DNA of 43,372 nucleotides from a virus. The stretch is from IMG/VR virus record IMGVR_UViG_3300044630_003426, positions 1 to 43,372 of that record; one strand, written 5' to 3'. The notes under the pieces were generated by a model that made no database searches, was not told where the DNA came from, and saw nothing but the letters and a program-made list of their open reading frames with translations. Positions 16,791 to 43,372 of this stretch are shown here, piece by piece. The translations under genes were made by a program, and so were the position numbers. Each line of letters starts with the position of its first letter. Positions within the stretch are counted from its first letter, which is position 1.

Positions 16791-19760
16791 TTATTGTCCC
16801 ACAGCTGTGCCATTTAGAACAGCCAGTAATACAGGACTTTGTTCCCTGAATGATGTGCCGGTCAGCGTGCTTGCAAACCGTGGGTGGTTCAGGTTCACGA
16901 TCAGGCAGTTGGTCTGGCCGGGGCTTCTGTCCTTACAACCCTTGAACACAGTCACACGCTCGCGCTTAGCAATCAATGCACCATTGGCCTGCAGTTCACG
17001 CTCAATACGGTCAAGGCTGTCGCTAGTTCTGTTTAGCCACGCTCTGAACAAAGTCAAGTTGAGTGCGGCCACGCTACCGGGCATGACGGGGGTCTTCGCA
17101 TCATAGACAACCTTGATACGTGCAACGGCTTTCTCTGGAGCGGGCTGTGTCACCTGTTCCTTGCCTGAGCCGTATACCTCTGTGCAATGCACCAAGCGGT
17201 CGTTGTGTTCCATGAGGAACTGGCCGATGGTGTCGAACACGTCAGACTTACTCTCAATAGCGGCCTGACGAGTTTGCTTAACGCGCTCAATCATGTACTC
17301 AATAGTTGCCTTGATGTCGAACGGGAACAAGCCCAAAGCCTGACCGATGCGACCCATGCCCCATGATGCAATGAGTAGCGTTCTATAGAAGCGCTCTTGC
17401 GGCTCGAACAGAAAACCGAATGTCTTATTGAACGACGCCTCAGACCAGTTCCACACAGGTTCTGGGCCACCCTTGTCGAGCACAACTTGCACAAGCTCAG
17501 GGAAAGCCCATCCGTTGTTCTTCTCAACAAGCGCAAAGAAATCATGACCATTGCTGTGGCCGTCTTCACGAGTTGCAACAAACAAACGGTCGTGCTGATG
17601 GAACTCCAAGCAACGTGCTTTCAGTGGGTCATTGCCCGCACGAGCGTTTTCAAATTTGTTGTACAGCGAATAGTTCGATGTCATGTGAGTTGGCCCACAC
17701 CATGTAGCAGGCTTACGAAGCTCACGCTCTTTCGTCATGGTAATCTTTTCACGGCCTTGGCTCAGTGTGTAAGCCATGTCTGCCATAGCCTCGTCGTCTG
17801 CTACCGTGACTTCATCAATACTGCAAGGCAAGCTGTTGAGCATGCCGCGTATCCCGTAGAAAGCATTCGCTGAGTCCTGCTTGCTCAGGAACAAAGCCTT
17901 GGGGCTACCGATCAAACTGTTAACAGCAATGATCGACAGTGATTTACCAGTTGTTGTTAAATCAGAGTAAACCGACACGATGGCTGTGGCGTTACCCGCC
18001 GCAGGGCCAAGGATGCCTACAGTAGCAGTCAACAGCGACGCACGAATGTTGTCAGTGCCGGGCAGGTTAAGCATCTCCATCGCACGAACAAACTCAGAAC
18101 GTTCACCATGCGGGCCAATGAGCTTAGCATAACTAGCGGCAGGGCCACGCAGACGTGTGTCTGTTGCACCAATGCTTGAGCCAAGAATAGTCTGGCCGCA
18201 CATGAATGAGCCATCCTCTTGCCAACCGAAGTTAACGAAATCCAAACCTGTGGGCGCTTGCTGTTGCACCATGGATAAATAGTCCATCAAATAGCTCCTT
18301 ACCTTTTCCTGTTGTCCTGCGTTCTTAATGTAGATTTGTTGGTTCAATAAGAACCCTGAGAAGTCCTTGCCGATCGATGCGAGCACAACGATCTCGTGTT
18401 CAGTTTCTTTCCACCCAGTCATCGGGTATTTGGTCAACAGCCTGAACGCTGACTTGCGGCTTGCAGGGTCGTGGTACACACCAGTGATGTGCATCTCGTA
18501 CGGGCTGACGTGATCGAACTCAGTAACTTCCTGTGCGACTTCATTGCCGTTTGCATCGGTTGTCGTGATCTCAGTCTTGACCTCACGCATGATGTTGTTG
18601 TTCTGAATCGCATAGCCCTTGGGCAGTGTGAACGTGAACTCTTCGCCTGCCGCAGTAACGACTTCGGTCTCAGTCGCAACGGACAACTGCGCAGGGCTTG
18701 TGATGTTCCCACGGCTTGGGCATCCCTCGCATCCCTTCGCACAGAACTGTTCGAACTTCGCACATGTTGTTGGGCCAGTGCCGTTCCAACCGTTTAGCTT
18801 GTTCATGCTTGCGTCGAGATCAAAGTCAGGGTGTTTCCCTGCAATCTTGATGACAGCTTCTTTTACGTCCGTGCAATGTTTGGCCAGACCAAGTGAAGCA
18901 CGCCATAGAGGCTCATCGACATCCCTACCAGCAGCATCCAATACGCCGCCAGATTCGACAAGGGCCCTGACTTGATTGCATCTGGAGGCCACTGCGTCAA
19001 GGACGACGTCGTTGGAATTGAGCACCGCATCAAGTATCGAGGACTTCCCACCTTTGCGTGAAGCTGTTGCCTTCTTAGTCGCAGGGCCTTTATTGAACCA
19101 TGGCTTGAGGATTGTGAAGAGCGAAGCAGGATCGTAGTCTGGGCAGTCCGCAACACACTTGACTTCCTTCCATGGCTGTTGCTTCTTATGATGCGTGCCG
19201 ACTGGACGTAGCACCATGGATGGATCGTGGATTTTAGATGTGTCAATTATAACTCCCTGTTCTTCCAACGCAACGCGAAATGCAATGGAGGCTTTCTCCC
19301 AATGATCTCTACTCACAGCCTGTGTTAGTGGCCAATACAAGTGCACGCCATTACCTGACGAAATCACCATGGGGTCTGGCATACCGATAGCCGCAAGCGC
19401 GGGCATCATGGCCTTCATGCCTTCGGCCTTGGTTGCGTACGGTGTTTTACTGCCGATGTCTAAGTCAAGTGCAAGTGCTTTGAACCACGTTGCTTTAACT
19501 TGAGTGCGTTCAATCTTTTCACGACCATCCGGTCGTGCAACTCTGTTGTTTGCGAATGCACCAACAGAAAAATAAATAGTTGTTTCGGGCTCAGTGTCCC
19601 ACATTGAAATGTTTGCAACAGCTTCATCGATGTCTGCAAACGAGCCGCGGTTCCAACCGAACCCACGGGGATTTTGGCCTGAGTGGTCAGGCTTGTGTGC
19701 CATGATGACGACTTCGTCACGTTGGGCAAATATACGAGTAAGAAAGTTTTTTGTGTCCAA
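16791..19760 (-). CDS. Primase-polymerase/helicase fusion (AEP-like N-terminus, DUF927-like ATPase)
   Basis: 989 residues from a TTG start; AGGGG six bases upstream supports it, and the first ATG (residue 20) has no such site. N-terminal part: archaeo-eukaryotic-primase-like motifs ALDLDIG (Asp99, Asp101), SGNGVHLYWP (135-144) and DTSKIHDPSMVLRPVGTHH (173-191). A Cys cluster (CAKFEQFCAKGCEGC, about 335-350) may bind a metal. C-terminal part: a helicase-like ATPase with YSDLTTTGKS (GKS at 605-607) and Walker B-like SLPCSIDEV. The classic first Gly of the P-loop is replaced by Asp. Likely primes and unwinds at the phage fork. Confidence 0.68.
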   Translation of the reverse strand: MDTKNFLTRIFAQRDEVVIMAHKPDHSGQNPRGFGWNRGSFADIDEAVANISMWDTEPETTIYFSVGAFANNRVARPDGREKIERTQVKATWFKALALDLDIGSKTPYATKAEGMKAMMPALAAIGMPDPMVISSGNGVHLYWPLTQAVSRDHWEKASIAFRVALEEQGVIIDTSKIHDPSMVLRPVGTHHKKQQPWKEVKCVADCPDYDPASLFTILKPWFNKGPATKKATASRKGGKSSILDAVLNSNDVVLDAVASRCNQVRALVESGGVLDAAGRDVDEPLWRASLGLAKHCTDVKEAVIKIAGKHPDFDLDASMNKLNGWNGTGPTTCAKFEQFCAKGCEGCPSRGNITSPAQLSVATETEVVTAAGEEFTFTLPKGYAIQNNNIMREVKTEITTTDANGNEVAQEVTEFDHVSPYEMHITGVYHDPASRKSAFRLLTKYPMTGWKETEHEIVVLASIGKDFSGFLLNQQIYIKNAGQQEKVRSYLMDYLSMVQQQAPTGLDFVNFGWQEDGSFMCGQTILGSSIGATDTRLRGPAASYAKLIGPHGERSEFVRAMEMLNLPGTDNIRASLLTATVGILGPAAGNATAIVSVYSDLTTTGKSLSIIAVNSLIGSPKALFLSKQDSANAFYGIRGMLNSLPCSIDEVTVADDEAMADMAYTLSQGREKITMTKERELRKPATWCGPTHMTSNYSLYNKFENARAGNDPLKARCLEFHQHDRLFVATREDGHSNGHDFFALVEKNNGWAFPELVQVVLDKGGPEPVWNWSEASFNKTFGFLFEPQERFYRTLLIASWGMGRIGQALGLFPFDIKATIEYMIERVKQTRQAAIESKSDVFDTIGQFLMEHNDRLVHCTEVYGSGKEQVTQPAPEKAVARIKVVYDAKTPVMPGSVAALNLTLFRAWLNRTSDSLDRIERELQANGALIAKRERVTVFKGCKDRSPGQTNCLIVNLNHPRFASTLTGTSFREQSPVLLAVLNGTAVGQ

Positions 19761-23941: not shown

Positions 23942-25777
23942 CTATTTCGCCGCACCATATGACGGGCCAACACCCGTCTCACAAGATACGGGAATGCTCC
24001 GACACCACTTGGGCGTCAAAGCTAGGCACTCTTCCATATAGGCACGAGCTTCAGTAAGTTCTTCGTTTGGTACCACGCACACTGCTTCGTCATGGACTGA
24101 CAGCTTCACGGGATACCGTTGGTTAATACGTGCAGTTTGCCACATAACGATCCGCATTGCAGCATGTTGCGACAAATTTTCTACAACTTTTGGGCCAAAG
24201 ATGCGAACACGTTGTTTTCCCATCAGGTATGTCCACTCCTTGCCGTCCCACTTCAGGTCGTGGTACATGACACCGGGCTCACCGGGGCGGCCAAAGCCAT
24301 CCTTCTGCGTGATAAACCAACCATTGACGTCCACGTTCATCATGGTGCAACCATTGGCGATGTCCGGCAGAATGACTTGCTGACAACGACCCCACAGATC
24401 GACAACCTTGTGGTGCACTGAGCGGTACAGATTCACAATGTCGTACGCACGGTCAAGACCGATCGGCTGAACCGACGGATCAGTGCGCGACGCAATGCGA
24501 ACCATCTCTTGGAATCGCTGAGCACCGGCACCGTATTGCAGGCCCAACATCGCGGTCTTGCCAAGGAAACGTTCAGCCTTGTCAGCCTTGGTAATGTCAC
24601 GACCGAACAGCTTTGATGCAAAGTCACAGTACAAGTCAACGCCCTTGGCTAACTTCTCCACCACGTCATCCTGTCCGGCCAAAGCCATCACAGTGCGAAG
24701 CTCAATGTTCGACGAGTCACCGACGAGCACAGTGTGTCCCTCGGGAGCGAGCAAGGCGTTACGCAGACCCGCAGACGGGCCACGCGCAGGGATGTTCTGC
24801 CAGTTGATACTGTTGCCGCCTGAGTACCGGCCAGTGGTTTTAGCGCCCCAGAAGTTGAGGTACACCGGCAGTGGGCCACGCTTTGCAGTATCCACGAACT
24901 TGAGCGCACGGGTCTCAGCGATGGTTGTCTTCACACCAAGGCGTGCGGCGACGAGCGTCTGCACCTGTGGGTTCTCATGGTCGAGCAAGTCGGTGAAGTT
25001 CTTGTCGCTCTTAGCGAACGCAAACGTTTCCTTACCGGTTGTAGCACTAATCTTTTTGGGCGCGGGTACACCAAGCATCTCAAGCTGTTCAGCAAACTTG
25101 TCGTTAGACATCAGCGTGTCCTTGCCGACAACCAGTGAACGCATCAGCATGTCCTTGCGGGCGACCTCGTCTTTGTACAACTGTTCCATCATGGCTACAT
25201 CACCCACAAGCGTAGGCTCAGTGAACATCCGCACAGTCATGTCGATCAGGCGCGTCTCCAGTGTAGGTGTGAACGCATCCATCTTCTCACCGATTGCACG
25301 GCACAGCCACGTGTCATGCTTGCAGTAATCTGCGTACGCCTCTAATTCCATGGGATTAAAGTCATTACGGCGTTTGCCCATTGCTTTAATAACTTCAGTA
25401 CCCTTGTCAGGGAACCCGAAGAATTTGGTTAAGTTAGCAAGTGAGTGAGAGACTAAGTGGGGGTAGAGCATGCGGGCTTGGGAGAGTGTGTCCATCCACA
25501 ACCGCGGTCGTATTGCTAGTCGTTGCGTCAGCGCGTACCCGTCAAACAATGTGTTGTGGCATCGCACAGCAGAGTTAGCCCAGTCGTAGTTAGCGTGCAT
25601 CCACGCCATGATTACAGACTCAGGGCCAGAGAACCACACAGGCGGCTCAGCGTTACGTGCAACGCACACGCCAATGAATTCGAATCGATCGTCCATGATG
25701 TACGCATCAGTCTGCATCTTTGACAAACTGAATTGTGCATCGTAGTACGTCTCAATATCTACAGTGAGGATGTCCAT
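23942..25777 (-). CDS. Family A DNA polymerase with 3'-5' exonuclease domain
   Basis: 611 residues. The N-terminal DEDD-type exonuclease opens with VDIETYY (Asp7, Glu9), then CHNTLFDGY and YCKHDTWL. Polymerase motif A is VGDSSNIELR (Asp354), where most family members have DYSQIE. Motif B is KAERFLGKTAMLGLQYG and motif C is SVHDEAV (Asp563). All catalytic carboxylates are present, so it should be active as the phage replicase. There is no 5'-3' nuclease domain. The ATG shares one base with the preceding gene's stop. The motif A variant is shared by some phage polymerases and may alter sugar or base selection. Confidence 0.92.
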   Translation of the reverse strand: MDILTVDIETYYDAQFSLSKMQTDAYIMDDRFEFIGVCVARNAEPPVWFSGPESVIMAWMHANYDWANSAVRCHNTLFDGYALTQRLAIRPRLWMDTLSQARMLYPHLVSHSLANLTKFFGFPDKGTEVIKAMGKRRNDFNPMELEAYADYCKHDTWLCRAIGEKMDAFTPTLETRLIDMTVRMFTEPTLVGDVAMMEQLYKDEVARKDMLMRSLVVGKDTLMSNDKFAEQLEMLGVPAPKKISATTGKETFAFAKSDKNFTDLLDHENPQVQTLVAARLGVKTTIAETRALKFVDTAKRGPLPVYLNFWGAKTTGRYSGGNSINWQNIPARGPSAGLRNALLAPEGHTVLVGDSSNIELRTVMALAGQDDVVEKLAKGVDLYCDFASKLFGRDITKADKAERFLGKTAMLGLQYGAGAQRFQEMVRIASRTDPSVQPIGLDRAYDIVNLYRSVHHKVVDLWGRCQQVILPDIANGCTMMNVDVNGWFITQKDGFGRPGEPGVMYHDLKWDGKEWTYLMGKQRVRIFGPKVVENLSQHAAMRIVMWQTARINQRYPVKLSVHDEAVCVVPNEELTEARAYMEECLALTPKWCRSIPVSCETGVGPSYGAAK

Positions 25778-29881: not shown

Positions 29882-31030
29882 TCACAATGCAACAGTAACC
29901 CGTGTGCCGAATGGTTCGGTCGGGTGTGAATAGCCGATGTCGGCCCAGATAACAGGGAAGGTTGGTTCCTCGCATTCCTGCAAGTTGCCCTCCATGTCGG
30001 TGAAAAAGATCAGGCCGCAGTAGCGGTCGTCACTTGTAGCCAAGTGTTCGAACACTGGTTGGAATCGTGTGCCGCCACCACCCTTGGGGTGTAGCTTAAG
30101 CAAGTCGTCGCGCTCGAAGCGCTCGACCTTGGTCACACTGTAGTCGCAGTACACAACCTCGATGAAGGATGGTTGCAAGTCGTCAACGATCGCCTGAATC
30201 TCAGCGGCAATCTGGTTGCATTCCTTGGGGCCCATCGAGCCTGACGTGTCAAAGCCAATAGCCAAGCCACCGAGCGAGTCAGTGCGAAGCGATGGCATGT
30301 ACAAGCCAGAGCCAATGAAGCGACGCGATGGACGCAGGTACGTGTAGTCAGCGGCAGATGATTCTGTCAGCATGGAACGAGTCACGTCTTGCCAACGCAC
30401 ATGGGGTTGACCTACGTTGTCAAGGACACGATCGATGAGGGTAGAACCCTGACCACATTCCTTGGCCATCTTAGCGGCGGCCACAATGGTAGCTTCCATG
30501 TCGACACGAGTCGCCTCGTCTTGTGCATCCTCGAGATCACCCTTGCCATCGAACCCGCCTGCATTGGGTTGGCCATCGCCCTCGCCATCACCGGAGCCTG
30601 AGCCTGAGCCACCCATAGGGGGCGGAGGATTTTCCTTGAGCTTGGCGTAGACTTCCTCGGAGGACATGCTCTCACGTACCCACGACAAGTTGACACCGCC
30701 CTTGGGTAACTGCCACCCACGGCTACGGATGTAAGCGTTGATGAGTGCGTCATTGGCGTAGTTCCACAAGCTAGGGTCACGGCCATCGCGACGCCACATG
30801 TGCATCATGACAACGTGCACAGCCTCGTGTAACACGAGACCGAACAACTCCTCGTCAGTCAGTGGATCACAGAACGCAGGGTTGAAGCGAACCCATGTGC
30901 CATTGGTACCGGCAGTGGATACCTTGTCAGAGACCTCGCGCTTGACGCGTGTCATGACGGCGGCAATGAATGATTCGCGCAGACCGAGCTTGCTGTATGC
31001 AACATCGATGCGGTCAGATAGTGTGCTCAT
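29882..31030 (-). CDS. VWA-domain / metallopeptidase-like protein (DUF2201-like)
   Basis: 382 residues from ATG 31030, preceded by CTGGAG. N-terminal part: metallopeptidase-like, with HEAVH at 68-72 inside LVLHEAVHVVMMHMW. An acidic Gly/Ser-rich linker (GSGSGSGDGEGDGQ, about 141-154) follows. C-terminal part: a von Willebrand factor A-like domain with the MIDAS motif DTSGSMG (Asp261, Ser263, Ser265) and GGGGTRFQPVFEH. VWA proteins of this type work with MoxR AAA ATPases, whose gene lies two genes upstream. The VWA would grip a target that the ATPase remodels. A palindrome copy lies 24 bases before the ATG. Confidence 0.82.
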   Translation of the reverse strand: MSTLSDRIDVAYSKLGLRESFIAAVMTRVKREVSDKVSTAGTNGTWVRFNPAFCDPLTDEELFGLVLHEAVHVVMMHMWRRDGRDPSLWNYANDALINAYIRSRGWQLPKGGVNLSWVRESMSSEEVYAKLKENPPPPMGGSGSGSGDGEGDGQPNAGGFDGKGDLEDAQDEATRVDMEATIVAAAKMAKECGQGSTLIDRVLDNVGQPHVRWQDVTRSMLTESSAADYTYLRPSRRFIGSGLYMPSLRTDSLGGLAIGFDTSGSMGPKECNQIAAEIQAIVDDLQPSFIEVVYCDYSVTKVERFERDDLLKLHPKGGGGTRFQPVFEHLATSDDRYCGLIFFTDMEGNLQECEEPTFPVIWADIGYSHPTEPFGTRVTVAL

Positions 31031-31054
31031 AATTTCTCCAGTAAGTAAACAAGT

Positions 31055-31070
31055 TAATCCCATGGGATTA
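31055..31070. repeat. Palindrome copy 1 (TAATCCCATGGGATTA)
   Basis: A perfect 16-bp dyad in the leader of the VWA gene, two bases beyond the preceding gene's stop. One of nine copies of TAATCCCNNGGGATTA. Confidence 0.9.
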
Positions 31071-31072
31071 GG

Positions 31073-31354
31073 TCAATTATATTCCAATGCGAACAACGAC
31101 TCAACAAACACACGCGCAGTGGCAAGGTCATCGAAGCTCTGCACATCGTCGAACGTGTTGCGTGTCACAACCCAACCCTTGTCTGAGTCAAGTAACCCAG
31201 ACATGTTGTAGGCAGGGCGGACGAACGCAAACGCATGCCTAACGTGCATCTGCTTGAGTGAGCTAGCCCGCGAGCGTTTCTCAACATAGGCAGTCCACGA
31301 ACCCACGGGTGTGTTCTGCCATTTGAGCTCGGGTCGTTTGTCAACCATCTTCAT
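31073..31354 (-). CDS. Hypothetical protein between MoxR and VWA genes
   Basis: 93 residues from ATG 31354, which overlaps the MoxR stop (ATGA). Basic N-terminal half with SWTAYVEKRSRASSLKQMHVRH and a C-terminal helix DDLATARVFVESLFAL. No domain is recognised. Translational coupling to the ATPase suggests that it is an adaptor or partner of the MoxR-VWA pair; this is inference. Confidence 0.62.
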   Translation of the reverse strand: MKMVDKRPELKWQNTPVGSWTAYVEKRSRASSLKQMHVRHAFAFVRPAYNMSGLLDSDKGWVVTRNTFDDVQSFDDLATARVFVESLFALEYN

Positions 31355-32358
31355 TTCATTGCAAACGCCGCTTGGTTGGCAATAGCCCACTGTGTGAATG
31401 CCGCGCTCTTAGTGATCGTGCGGTCACGCTTGTGTGCCAGTTTGATGGTGAGTGTCTGCACCTCGCCGGGCATCTTAGCCAAGAACTTCCATGCCTTGTC
31501 GAAGTTGGTAGCGTCGAGGCGTGTAGCCAAGCCCATAGCGACGCAATAGCGTACGTTGAGTTCCTTGGGCACAGGCACGTCCTTGCCTTGCAAGATGTCC
31601 TCGATACGTGGCATGGATTCCCATACACGCAGGTGTGTCTCGAAGATCATGGCCGCCTCTTCACCGACGTCACCCTTGATAAGCTCGACGCGATCCTGCA
31701 CGGGCAGGTCAAGCTCCAGTGTGTGCGACACAGCGAACCATGAACGTGGTGAGGGGAAGGGACGAATGTCACCAGTGGGCTCGAACTTGTGCAACAAGTC
31801 AGGGCGGTCTTGCAACAGAGACAGAATCTCTGGGCGAATGCCACGTGTGATTGCATGGGCAACGAAGTCGTCGATCGTGGTGTTGACGTCGATGTCACAC
31901 ATGCGGTTCTGCAGTGGTGCGGCTAGGTTAAACGTCACGCCTCGGTCGGTCTTGCGATTGCCTGCGGCAATGACCATCCACTCAGGGGGAATGCCGAAGT
32001 CCTCGGGCGTCAGGCACAACTGGTATGCGGCGGCCTGCACTGAAGGGGGAGCTGACGTGATCTCATCAAGGAACAGTAGACCTGCACCTGACTCGGGTAG
32101 GAAACCGGGGCGTGCCCAGTGTGTGCGGCCATCGACAACGTGCGGGATACCGCGAAGGTCAGTGGGCTCCATCTGTGCAAGGCGAAGGTCGACGACCCCT
32201 TGCCAGTTAGATACATGCTCAGACAATAGCTTGCTTGTCTGGAACACAACCTCGGACTTGCCGATGCCCGATGGGCCACGCAAGAAAGTTGTACGTGCTC
32301 GTGTCTTGTCGTTGAGGTAACGCTTAACGAGGATGGGGGTAACGTGTGCAATACGCAT
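31351..32358 (-). CDS. MoxR-type AAA+ ATPase
   Basis: 335 residues. Walker A GPSGIGKS (28-35), Walker B LLFLDEI (Asp98, Glu99), sensor region VIAAGNRKTDRG, an Arg-finger candidate in APLQNRM, and a helical lid after it. MoxR proteins form hexameric chaperone-like machines that act on a substrate through a VWA partner. That partner is encoded at 29882-31030. Phage copies may remodel host enzymes or virion parts; the substrate is unknown. The leader contains a palindrome copy 58 bases before the ATG and AGGAAATTATC as ribosome site. Confidence 0.88.
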   Translation of the reverse strand: MRIAHVTPILVKRYLNDKTRARTTFLRGPSGIGKSEVVFQTSKLLSEHVSNWQGVVDLRLAQMEPTDLRGIPHVVDGRTHWARPGFLPESGAGLLFLDEITSAPPSVQAAAYQLCLTPEDFGIPPEWMVIAAGNRKTDRGVTFNLAAPLQNRMCDIDVNTTIDDFVAHAITRGIRPEILSLLQDRPDLLHKFEPTGDIRPFPSPRSWFAVSHTLELDLPVQDRVELIKGDVGEEAAMIFETHLRVWESMPRIEDILQGKDVPVPKELNVRYCVAMGLATRLDATNFDKAWKFLAKMPGEVQTLTIKLAHKRDRTITKSAAFTQWAIANQAAFAMK

Positions 32359-36279: not shown

Positions 36280-37050
36280 TTAATCGTGAATCCGTTGGTT
36301 GAGGGCAACGTAACCGGCCACTGTGGCACGCATCTGCTTTACTGGCATGGGGATTACTGTGTCGATGAATGTAAGCATGTCGTGGCATGCGGCCATGAAA
36401 GCGGGGTTATCGTGTGAGGCGGCAAGGGCGGACTCTGGGTGAATGTCACCCGACACGTTGCGAATGCATGTCTCGAGGTGAACCCGTGCATCGTGTAAAA
36501 GTGTGAACCTTGTCTCATCATGCAACCTTGGGCGAACCGCGGCAGTCTCGAGTTTGTCCATAGCCTCGGCATAGTTGACGCCATACTGACAAGCCTCAGC
36601 ACGATGTGGTTTTGTCAACCCGCTGAATCCCTTGTCGTCATTCCACTTGCAACGTGTGCGATAGCCCGCCTCGAAACACCCAGTGCGGTAAATTTTCTTG
36701 ACGGCAACGTCATAGCTAAACCCTGCAGACTTTTGTTGCTCTAGAAAAGCATTGAAGTAAAGTGACTTGTGACGTCTGGTCGTTGGTGAAAACCCGTTGA
36801 CGTGCAACCAGAGCTCCACGTTGTTTGTGTGGTTGTTGTGCACTAACTGGGCAACTTCTGTGCTGTATGAATAACCCACGGCTAGCACATCGAAATGTCC
36901 GCCTGACTCTAGGTTGATTGAACTTTGTTGGGAAAGCGTCGGGTTGCGTGCAGACATATTAGTGCCTACACCCAGTGAGCGCATTTCAGTGCCGACAAGT
37001 TTTTTAGCCGCAGACGCAAAGCGTGCGGCAACATGTGCATTTGTTGTCAT
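36280..37050 (-). CDS. Hypothetical protein, first gene of the P2 operon
   Basis: 256 residues. It begins MTTNAHVAARFASAAKKLVG and has a Ser/Asn/Gln-rich region, then HNNHTNNVELWLHVNGFSP, KSLYFNAFLEQQKSAGFSYD and a His-rich C-terminal third. No signal peptide or known motif. TGGAGATCAA precedes the ATG. Being the first product of a strong promoter beside the putative origin, it may be an early takeover protein; this is inference. Confidence 0.6.
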   Translation of the reverse strand: MTTNAHVAARFASAAKKLVGTEMRSLGVGTNMSARNPTLSQQSSINLESGGHFDVLAVGYSYSTEVAQLVHNNHTNNVELWLHVNGFSPTTRRHKSLYFNAFLEQQKSAGFSYDVAVKKIYRTGCFEAGYRTRCKWNDDKGFSGLTKPHRAEACQYGVNYAEAMDKLETAAVRPRLHDETRFTLLHDARVHLETCIRNVSGDIHPESALAASHDNPAFMAACHDMLTFIDTVIPMPVKQMRATVAGYVALNQRIHD

Positions 37051-37088
37051 TTGATCTCCAGTGATACGTATATAAGTGAGGGAGTTGC

Positions 37089-37104
37089 TAATCCCGTGGG
37101 ATTA
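37089..37104. repeat. Palindrome copy 7
   Basis: TAATCCCGTGGGATTA in the leader downstream of promoter P2, about 45 bases after the predicted start, matching the geometry at P1. Confidence 0.9.
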
Positions 37105-37155
37105 GCGCTTTACCGAATCGGGGTACCTGAAGGCGCTTTCCGACTCGATGGATAC

Positions 37156-37184
37156 ATTGTACCATGATGTGGTGTGGTTGTCAA
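37156..37184 (-). promoter_or_regulatory. Strong sigma70 promoter P2
   Basis: On the minus strand TTGACA, 17-base spacer, TACAAT. The spacer shares CCACACCACAT with P1 and has ACCA/TGGT arms around its centre. It serves the leftward genes from 37050. Confidence 0.85.
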
Positions 37185-37216
37185 GTCGTGGAGAATATGT
37201 CGTATGCGTGTTGGTG

Positions 37217-37307
37217 ATTAGTTGGGGGAATAGTTTGATTAGTCGGGAAATTAGTTGGCGCAAAATTCGTAAGTTGTTGATTTGCAAGGCTTTAGTAAAT
37301 TAGTTGG
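37217..37307 (+). repeat. Iteron-like ATTAGTTGG repeats
   Basis: Four copies of ATTAGT(T/C)GG start at 37217, 37238, 37250 and 37299, spaced 21, 12 and 49 bases. They lie upstream of the G-rich and AT-rich tracts and the DnaA box, as initiator-binding iterons would. Confidence 0.6.
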
Positions 37308-37336
37308 GTTTTCCAGCAAGAGAGAGAAATCTTGGA

Positions 37337-37367
37337 GGGGGTAGGGGGGGTTGAGGGCTTGGAGGGG
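37337..37367 (+). other. G-quadruplex motif
   Basis: G-runs of 5, 7, 3 and 4 separated by TA, TTGA and CTTGGA, meeting the usual intramolecular G4 rule. It lies between the iteron-like repeats and the AT-rich tract. Confidence 0.65.
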
Positions 37368-37403
37368 TTGAATGCTACTGGAATTTAACTTTTCCTCTCT
37401 TGA

Positions 37404-37448
37404 AATAGCTAACTAATAAATAATTTACTATTTAATAAAATATATATA
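37404..37448. other. AT-rich tract, candidate unwinding element
   Basis: About 45 bases almost wholly A/T, containing TAATAAATAATTTA and TATATATA, in an otherwise balanced genome. Followed 54 bases later by a DnaA box. Confidence 0.55.
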
Positions 37449-37501
37449 CCCCCTATGCCGAACCCATGCCGGAAAAAGTCCTTTAAAATCAACAACTTAG
37501 C

Positions 37502-37510
37502 TTATCCACA
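37502..37510 (+). other. Perfect DnaA box (TTATCCACA)
   Basis: An exact match to the consensus DnaA box beside the AT-rich tract. With the iterons it supports a replication origin that may use host DnaA. No second perfect box was found in the region. Confidence 0.6.
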
Positions 37511-37656
37511 CCACATATGGCCAATTTAACGTCGAAATAGTTTAGTAAATGTAAGTTTCGTGTAATCTAAAATCACCCTAAATTAGTGGTCACTTCGCCC
37601 GCAACCCGCATGAATCCTCATTTGTTGTGTATCTACAACATTACTGGCATTGTGGT

Positions 37657-37672
37657 TAATCCCGTGGGATTA
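37657..37672. repeat. Palindrome copy 8
   Basis: TAATCCCGTGGGATTA, followed by a run of G. It lies in the noncoding region and not in a gene leader. Confidence 0.9.
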
Positions 37673-37698
37673 GGGGGGGGTATGCCGAACGGGGCTTT

Positions 37699-37751
37699 TA
37701 CGTCGCTCATACGTCATACGTCAGCCATACATCGCCCATACGTCGTACGTC
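37699..37751 (+). repeat. Phased TACGTC array
   Basis: TACGTC starts at 37699, 37710, 37717, 37739 and 37746, with a variant TACATC at 37728. Spacings are 11, 7, 11, 11 and 7 bases, so most sites lie about one helical turn apart, as for a cooperative DNA-binding protein. Confidence 0.65.
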
Positions 37752-37773
37752 GTCGCATACTGGGCCGCGAAGA

Positions 37774-37814
37774 TGATAGTAGTGTGATGCACACGCATGC
37801 GTGATGATAGTAGT
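37774..37814 (+). repeat. Two TGATAGTAGT repeats
   Basis: Copies at 37774-37783 and 37805-37814, flanking a GATGCACACGCATGC stretch. Further copies are at 38665, 38759 and 39524, all intergenic. Confidence 0.6.
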
Positions 37815-37837
37815 TTGGTATTGGGATTTTTTGATGG

Positions 37838-37863
37838 AAAAAAAAGCCCGCTTGCGCGGGCTT
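37838..37863 (-). terminator. Rho-independent terminator
   Basis: On the minus strand: stem AAGCCCGC / GCGGGCTT with a four-base loop, then eight T. Placed 19 bases after the stop of the 37882-38526 gene. Confidence 0.88.
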
Positions 37864-37881
37864 GGCCGGTTTACCGGTTGG

Positions 37882-38664: not shown

Positions 38665-38704
38665 TGATAGTAGTTGGGGCCCCATACGTCGTGCGTCACA
38701 CGTC
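38665..38704 (+). repeat. Second TGATAGTAGT / TACGTC block
   Basis: TGATAGTAGT at 38665-38674, then TACGTC, TGCGTC and CACGTC at 38685, 38692 and 38699 (7-base spacing), followed by GCATAC as in the first array. It is a degenerate second copy of the 37.7-kb block. Confidence 0.55.
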
Positions 38705-39404: not shown

Positions 39405-39820
39405 GATAAAAATTCCTTTAAGTAAATGATTTGAATTCCGTTTGGTCTCTTTCGCCCATGGGGAAATTATAAGGGGTTTTGCCATTTAATTGTGGGTTTG
39501 ACCCTTAATTCTGGATGATTGAGTGATAGTAGTAGCCACCCCCCACAGGCCCCCCGACCCACCCCCACCCATACCCCAGCCTTATCCGTGTCTCTCATAA
39601 CAAGGCCAATTTTTTAAGGTACCTCACGTACACCACATGTCCATAATTTAATTACCTAGCCCACACAACATCTCCACCACAAAAATTTTATAGCTATTTT
39701 TTATTTCCAAATACATATACAATATCCCGGCTGGTTAAGCGCACAGGGTTCGGAGACACTTTCGAGCACCGCGTCGGGTTAGGGGTTCCTAGCCGCCAGC
39801 ATTCATGTTACATTCCGCCC
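39405..39820. other. Divergent junction upstream of the terminase genes
   Basis: 416 bases with no supported gene. It holds a TGATAGTAGT copy (39524-39533), a C-rich tract, an AT-rich stretch (39641-39725) with a TACAAT at 39718, and GC-rich sequence just before the terminase. Packaging-site (cos/pac) sequences often lie here, but none can be identified by eye. Confidence 0.5.
39539..39577 (-). other. G-quadruplex motif on the minus strand
   Basis: Six C-runs of three to six bases on the plus strand within 39 bases give at least four G-runs on the minus strand, enough for a G4. It is the second G4 motif of the window, again at a region without genes. Confidence 0.6.
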
Positions 39821-41856: not shown

Positions 41857-43372
41857 ATGGCTACAGGTATTGCTCTCATTCCAGTTGCCCGCGCAAGTGA
41901 CCTTGAGGCGGAATCTAAAAAGCGTAGTGATTCTATGCAGAACCAGCCCGTGATTCAGGGCTTAGCTGCGCACGTCCGCACTCGATGGGACAGTGCTCGC
42001 ACTGCGAAACGAACGTTGGAAGACCGCATGCTGCAGTGCCTGCGCCAGCGTAACGGCGAGTATGACCCTGAGAAATTGCAGGAAATCAGAGAGCAGGGCG
42101 GCTCCGATATTTATATCAACCTGACCTCAGTTAAGTGCCGCGCAGCGACAAGTTGGTTGCGTGATACGCTGTTAGGTTCTGGCTCTGACAAACCTTGGGC
42201 GATTGCTGGAACGCCGAACCCTGACATGCCTCCGGAGATCATGCAGGAATTGCAGGCACGATTGGCCAACGAGTTGATGGTTCACATACAGCAGGGCGGC
42301 ATGCAGCCTAGTCCCTCAGAGTTGCGCACAATGGCGCTTCAGATGAAAGACGAAGCTGAGCGTGAGATGCGTGAGCAATCCGCAGACCGTGTTAGCCGCA
42401 TGGAACGTAAGATGGAAGACCAGTTGCTCGAGGGCGGTTGGTATAAAGCGTTCAACGAATTCTTGGATGACATCGTCACCTTCCCATACGCCGTGCTCAA
42501 GGGCCCGATCAAACGCAAACGCAAAACACTGCAGTGGCAGAACAACGCACTGGTTCCTGTCGAAGAGATTCGCAACGAGTGGGAGCGTGTTGATCCGTTC
42601 ATGTTGTACTGGGCTCCATGGTCGTGGGACTTAGGCGATGGTTACGTCATCGAGCGTCATCGCTTAACAGCTGAAGCACTGCAGGCCCTCATCGATGTGC
42701 CCGGTTACAACAACGACGCTATTCGTACAATCCTGAACGACTTCGGCACAATGGGCATGAAGCAGTGGTTGTGGTCTGATTCATCGAAAGCAGAAGCTGA
42801 AGGTAAAGACGTTACCGAGAGTTCCATCACTGGCGACTTGGTTGATGCACTGCAGCTGTGGGACTCTGTCAAGGGTAGCTTGCTCCTCGAGTGGGGCCTG
42901 ACTGAGAAAGAGATTCCTGATCCAGCTCTGAGCTATCCATGCGAAGTGTGGCTTATCGGCAACGTTGTGATTCGTGCTGTTCTGAACTACGATCCACTGG
43001 GCCGCAAGCCTTACTACCTCACAAGCTATGAGAACCTCCCCGGTTCCGTTGACGGTAAAGGCGTGACTGACTTGTGCCGTGACGCACAGGCTATGGTGAA
43101 CGCATCGGGCCGCGCACTGGCGAACAACATGGGTATTAGCTCTGGCCCACAGGTCGGAATTAACATCTCACGCTTGCCCGCAGGTGAAGACATCTCTGAC
43201 ATGCACCCATGGAAGATTTGGCAGTTCTCGTCTTCTGACTACGGTGACAACTCTCCACCTATTACGTTCTTCCAGCCTAACAGCAACGCCAACGAGTTGA
43301 TGGCTGTGTTTGAGAAATTCTCTGCACGCGCTGACGAAGACACGATGATCCCTCGCTACATGACGGGTGAGA
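41857..43372 (+). CDS. Portal (head-tail connector) protein, 5' part, cut by window end
   Basis: Open from ATG 41857 (AAGGA seven bases upstream) to the window end, 505 codons without a stop. It begins MATGIALIPVARASDL, then a helical stem (WDSARTAKRTLEDRMLQCLR), GGSDIYINLTSVKCRAATSW and LLEGGWYKAFNEFLDDIVTF. Next come VDPFMLYWAPWSWDLGDGYV and GRALANNMGISSGPQVGINI, a pattern of podovirus portals. The dodecameric portal forms the DNA entry channel and binds terminase and tail. The rest of the gene lies to the right of the window. Confidence 0.85.
   Translation, partial: MATGIALIPVARASDLEAESKKRSDSMQNQPVIQGLAAHVRTRWDSARTAKRTLEDRMLQCLRQRNGEYDPEKLQEIREQGGSDIYINLTSVKCRAATSWLRDTLLGSGSDKPWAIAGTPNPDMPPEIMQELQARLANELMVHIQQGGMQPSPSELRTMALQMKDEAEREMREQSADRVSRMERKMEDQLLEGGWYKAFNEFLDDIVTFPYAVLKGPIKRKRKTLQWQNNALVPVEEIRNEWERVDPFMLYWAPWSWDLGDGYVIERHRLTAEALQALIDVPGYNNDAIRTILNDFGTMGMKQWLWSDSSKAEAEGKDVTESSITGDLVDALQLWDSVKGSLLLEWGLTEKEIPDPALSYPCEVWLIGNVVIRAVLNYDPLGRKPYYLTSYENLPGSVDGKGVTDLCRDAQAMVNASGRALANNMGISSGPQVGINISRLPAGEDISDMHPWKIWQFSSSDYGDNSPPITFFQPNSNANELMAVFEKFSARADEDTMIPRYMTGE

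Follow-up and report, generated by a model that had tools for sequence, protein, structure and literature searches.

A candidate iteron-type replication origin in a noncoding gap of a phage early region

The sequence analysed here in full, hereafter the window, is a linear virus record of 43.4 kb (43,372 nucleotides) representing a fragment of a phage genome of around 61 kb. The relative G001, 60,979 bases in length, is very probably complete, as its ends share an identical 127-base overlap; it matches the window at 90-97% over most of the window's length and carries around 16 kb of extra sequence between window positions 43372 and 1. The late and terminase genes run rightward from 39.8 kb, and the replication and early genes run leftward from 39.5 to 16.2 kb, with those for replication including a family A DNA polymerase, a SNF2-type helicase, a RecB-type exonuclease and a 989 aa primase/helicase. 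The divergent gap between the leftward early and rightward late genes harbours a strongly C-rich stretch (39530-39580). An AAA ATPase gene is found beside a VWA/metallopeptidase-like gene (29882-32358; PHROG 1297 and 1314) in all relatives, and likewise in Rhizobium phage RHph_TM3_14A, the polymerase of which is 34% identical to that of the window phage, an ATPase gene lies close to one with a metallopeptidase domain. No real match to named phages was found at the level of DNA similarity, Rfam and tRNA scans returned no match, and a search of bacterial genomes for proviruses or a host link found none.

Two leftward genes of the early region are separated by an 831-base gap (37051-37881), one of few long noncoding stretches, which is syntenic across relatives and holds the lowest-GC tract. 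Open reading frame tiling and a close-relative alignment of 15 sequences, with the gap covered by 14 viral contigs carrying the adjacent gene, indicate that it is noncoding, since it contains no long open reading frame and relatives differ by many non-triplet indels. The core of the proposed origin occupies 37217-37505, and repeats and conserved blocks extend over approximately 37106-37700; hence the preliminary description of elements stacked in 300 bases of noncoding DNA was accurate as to the elements and their noncoding setting but underestimated their extent. Across approximately 25 phages compared for this layout, the succession of iterons, A-box, B-box, GAGAGAG, G run, AT tract and second A-box is retained, and among the close relatives the ATTAGT cores, the B-box and the block around the second A-box are held while the spacers vary through non-triplet indels. 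A match to the core pattern in L133 was discarded, as it falls within what looks like coding sequence on an unrelated contig. To the right, a leftward intrinsic terminator (37844-37863, - strand) would shield the region from upstream transcription. To the left, a leftward sigma70-type promoter termed P1 (37156-37184, - strand; TTGACA-17-TACAAT, with TG before the -10), which is kept in relatives, is directed out of the region.

The iterons consist of exactly four copies of ATTAGTYGG in the window, as originally described, all on the + strand between 37217 and 37307: ATTAGTTGG at 37217-37225, the ATTAGT core of which is present in most relatives; ATTAGTCGG at 37238-37246 and a second ATTAGTTGG at 37250-37258, both identified by motif match and the relatives' alignment; and a fourth at 37299-37307, inside the B-box. 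At least as many copies occurred in only one of 100 whole-window shuffles, and 100 bp of the gap contain five copies of a single 6-mer, a density reached in none of 1000 shuffles. Throughout the approximately 25 relatives the iteron sequence differs by lineage although the layout is kept. In the syntenic gap of more distant relatives the repeat is TTTAGCAG (G005 and L041), TTTAGATTGG (G006 and L042), TCTACTCA (G007) or ATAGACAG (G008/L063), and the cultured phages KPP25 and Rollin have TCGTAACA and AAAGGTAG, respectively. Iteron counts exceeded those of all 300 shuffles in each of six lineages tested, KPP25 and Rollin among them; hence clustered short repeats beyond chance, as characterise iteron-type origins, are present in the window and kept in its relatives.

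Overlooked in the preliminary description was a longer element of 18-21 bases, the A-box, which is present in two copies. The first, TAAGTTGTTGATTTGCAAGG (37270-37289, + strand), forms a 20-base inverted repeat with the second (37480-37499, - strand; CCTTTAAAATCAACAACTTA on the + strand), which lies within the conserved block CCTTTAAAATCAACAACTTAG (37478-37505), where 86% of columns are invariant in the close-relative alignment. Such pairs occur in 11 lineages at a spacing of 196-210 bp, either inverted, as in the window group, L042 and G007, or direct, as in L045, L047, L050, L053 and L064. The copies differ by 2.1 mismatches within a lineage versus 3.5 across lineages (permutation p 1e-4, with kinship not corrected for), and in whole-genome scans A-box matches are almost confined to the origin gap, making the element near-unique in the genome. 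RHph_TM3_14A possesses CCTTTAAAATCAATGGGTTAG, similar to the second A-box, and an inverted copy around 325 bp away, the pair being situated in an AT-rich noncoding gap of the early region. In G004/G005, G006 and G008 the second A-box is absent or was not recognised, and KPP25 has no A-box at all.

Several further elements lie between and beside the A-boxes. The B-box CTTTAGTAAATTAGTTGGGTTTT (37290-37312, + strand), an inverted repeat also missed initially, contains the fourth iteron, is conserved among close relatives as CTTTAGTCAATTAGTTGGGTTTT with 80% invariant columns, and is found in distant lineages too. It is followed by a GAGAGAG purine element (37319-37328, + strand) seen in nearly all lineages read, and by a G-rich run with a G4 motif (37337-37367, + strand). 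A short G run is common, but the G4 motif, although present as first noted, is not conserved: the tract is the least conserved block of the alignment (22% invariant columns) and the strict motif occurs in four of 13 lineages, so it was rejected as a defining element. The AT-rich tract reported earlier was borne out at approximately 37404-37449, where 60-base windows fall to 22% GC; it holds an inverted B-box copy (37418-37430) and is a probable unwinding element, placed beside the repeats as in iteron-type origins. Further right, the + strand element AACCCGCATG (37603-37612) is kept in relatives; the iteron region of KPP25 has three copies of its counterpart AACCCGCGTG, pointing to a possible shared origin element.

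The right edge of the region is marked by a palindrome, TAATCCCGTGGGATTA (37657-37672), kept in relatives. The 16 bp palindrome TAATCCCRYGGGATTA is present in approximately ten copies, where shuffles lead to an expectation of 0.18, and is conserved in all relatives read. Its sites, at 31055, 32417, 34183, 34602, 35734, 36253, 37089, 37657 and 38636, with a weaker one at 25343, mostly fall immediately before the start codons of leftward genes, within their leaders, the copy at 31055 including the ATG; they might represent an operator or a leader hairpin. Repeats of (C/G)TACGTC and GATGATAGTAG are found right of the origin at 37697-37760 and 37772-37817, in relatives as well, and GATAGTAG occurs additionally at 38666, 38765 and 39525.

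Beside the second A-box is a perfect match to the DnaA box, TTATCCACA (37502-37510, + strand), which appears to be fortuitous. Its presence was correctly reported, but 0.21 such boxes are expected per window, at least one occurs in 19 of 100 shuffles, and relatives have TCATCCAYA (most of them, including L005, which is around 89% identical overall) or TTATCCAGA at this site. No DnaA box was found in the origins of 12 other lineages; thus the conserved box or boxes of an oriC- or pSC101-like origin are lacking, and the DnaA-type parts of the original proposal fail along with the poorly conserved G4 tract. An element overlapping the box, CCACACCACAT, is indeed shared between 37506 and two promoters, at 37167 and 34677. 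P1 (37156-37187) and P2 (34666-34697) are near-identical leftward TTGACA-17-TACAAT promoters with this element in their spacers, a feature of the window group alone. The suggestion that it links promoter control to the origin was not upheld, as it is confined to the window and its closest relatives L004, L005 and L017; elsewhere among the relatives CATACAACAT occupies the 37506 site, with a different sequence in the P1 spacer. A putative rightward promoter at 37495-37530 was likewise rejected, the TACAAT of some relatives being GCCAAT in the window.

The proposed initiator is the 989 aa protein (16791-19760, - strand), encoded around 17.5 kb from the origin (16.8-19.8 kb versus 37.3 kb), which combines a PrimPol-like N-terminus with a DUF927 helicase domain (Pfam, 4.2e-15). 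Foldseek comparison of its model, itself of modest confidence (pLDDT 60.6), against the PDB matched SCCmec Cch (5dgk, 7.5e-13), in agreement with the sequence search, and SaPIbov1 Rep (8tch, 4.4e-11), such that Pfam and Foldseek both point to a self-loading DUF927 helicase initiator of the SaPIbov1-Rep/Cch type; the cyanophage S-2L PrimPol was also matched (1.2e-4). Searches with the initiator profile identified homologues in Rollin (5e-91) and RHph_TM3_14A (6e-54) but gave no match for gp57 of KPP25. The RHph_TM3_14A protein, EVB41_076 (L221:42239-45322), is annotated as a 'putative integrase', which its match to the PrimPol-DUF927 profile suggests is probably a misannotation. Residues 902-956 of the window protein, predicted as two helices followed by two strands, may form a winged helix. 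This putative DNA-binding C-terminus is approximately as conserved as the rest of the protein while the iterons change, and such even conservation makes it more likely that the initiator recognises the A-boxes, themselves conserved, than the lineage-dependent iterons.

The first gene downstream of P1 encodes a 256 aa protein (36280-37050, - strand) that diverges sharply between iteron groups, with 70-90% identity among members of the ATTAGT group and 22-32% identity beyond it, compared with 53-97% for replication proteins. Its sequence divergence hints weakly that it might be a co-evolving, iteron-binding cofactor; other small early proteins are also fast-evolving, and its fold had no match in the PDB. 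A tentative and less probable extension would be an origin of two layers, in which a conserved PrimPol-SaPI-Rep-like initiator reads the A-box pair at its fixed spacing of around 205 bp and a fast-evolving partner, for which the 256 aa protein is a candidate, reads the rapidly switching iterons; in this way, relatives that infect a common host would keep their origins incompatible.

GC skew, proposed as a check on the origin, yielded a minimum that is weak and displaced. The detrended minimum in eight relatives is of low amplitude and lies 1-8 kb left of the origin; that of RHph_TM3_14A is around 2.4 kb from its gap, and in KPP25 the nearby extremum is a maximum, of opposite sign. Skew also follows gene orientation, and the whole-window signal is too weak and displaced to serve as proof; it is compatible with an origin nearby and gives no evidence for its exact place.

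Comparison lends good support to the original identification of a candidate replication origin, through its place, architecture, lineage-specific iterons, A-box pair, AT tract and phage-encoded initiator helicase resembling SaPI Rep. With a probability of roughly three in four, we consider the region to be a phage iteron-type origin fired by the phage's own initiator, independently of DnaA. Both this reading and the choice of initiator are supported by RHph_TM3_14A, which has the initiator homologue as well as an A-box pair in an early noncoding gap. The elements, how far they are conserved and how the proteins are related are read directly from sequence; binding, melting and bidirectional firing we infer from these. 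The PrimPol-DUF927 helicase, probably in the form of two hexamers, would recognise the A-box pair with its spacing of around 205 bp and would be assisted by a protein bound to the lineage-specific iterons; the AT-rich tract between the A-boxes would then melt, allowing the helicase to load, its fused PrimPol domain to prime and the family A DNA polymerase of the phage to extend.

It is unlikely, though the strongest of the alternatives, that the iterons and boxes instead represent operator or activator sites through which a phage regulator controls leftward early transcription from P1, with no origin present. P1 is near-consensus and only 30-120 bp from the iterons, its spacer element recurs at P2, and operators too come in arrays; however, P2 is a promoter of the same type without iterons, A-box or AT tract, and the fixed spacing of the A-boxes around an AT tract better suits an origin, albeit one that might have a dual use. 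Considerably less probable is a pac site, or another recombination or termini site of a circularly permuted genome. The end overlaps of complete relatives are all of the assembly type, as circular permutation would allow, terminase lies 2-3 kb from the region (around 2.3 kb in the window), and several contigs break nearby, but these breaks are scattered rather than at a single site, and the equivalent RHph_TM3_14A region is around 7 kb from terminase. Furthermore, pac sites usually fall within or next to the gene for the small terminase, and neither iterons nor an AT-rich melting tract would be expected. Least credible is a DnaA-dependent origin, with the perfect box beside the A-box opening the AT tract as in oriC or pSC101, since that box is at chance frequency (around one in five shuffled windows), its non-conservation largely refutes the idea, and a proposed initiator helicase is encoded by the phage itself.

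If the iteron-type reading is correct, a large, mostly uncultured group of freshwater phages, together with KPP25, Rollin and RHph_TM3_14A, would gain a defined origin and a named, testable initiator, and the self-loading initiator type of SaPI and SCCmec would be extended, in a primase-fused form, to tailed phages with a lineage-switching iteron code. The lambda ori/O system similarly places a cluster of four iterons next to an AT-rich tract, but its O sites are inside the O gene and host DnaB is recruited, whereas the window region is noncoding and Pfam and PHROG scans of the main leftward genes detected no O-like protein. The alpha protein of satellite P4, like the window system, joins primase and helicase in one protein alongside an iteron origin, although its helicase family is different. 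PrimPol-DUF927 fusions of mobile elements, such as the PrimQH and all3500 PrimPol families, resemble the window protein in linking an AEP primase to a DUF927 ATPase and have a proposed C-terminal winged helix, putatively origin-reading, but no origin is described for these families (PMC5862659). KPP25, Rollin and RHph_TM3_14A, in whose records these features are not annotated as origins, have in common a noncoding, AT-rich tract within or close to the early region, accompanied by iterons in KPP25 and Rollin, of unrelated sequence, and by the A-box pair in RHph_TM3_14A. SaPI Rep opens iteron origins, and both Cch and the SaPIbov1 initiator are self-loading helicases. Published work relates Cch, which has a DUF927 domain, to SaPIbov1 Rep, and indicates that SaPI Rep uses its C-terminal domain to recognise iteron origins, where it apparently acts as two hexamers (PMC7581432). 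In contrast to these systems, the window initiator is fused to PrimPol, its gene is distant where that of SaPI is adjacent, so the origin is not directly downstream of it, the origin has an additional pair of long conserved A-boxes, and the element is a tailed phage rather than a satellite; shared with them are an initiator of the DUF927/Cch/SaPIbov1-Rep fold, multiple short lineage-specific iterons and an apparent lack of need for DnaA.
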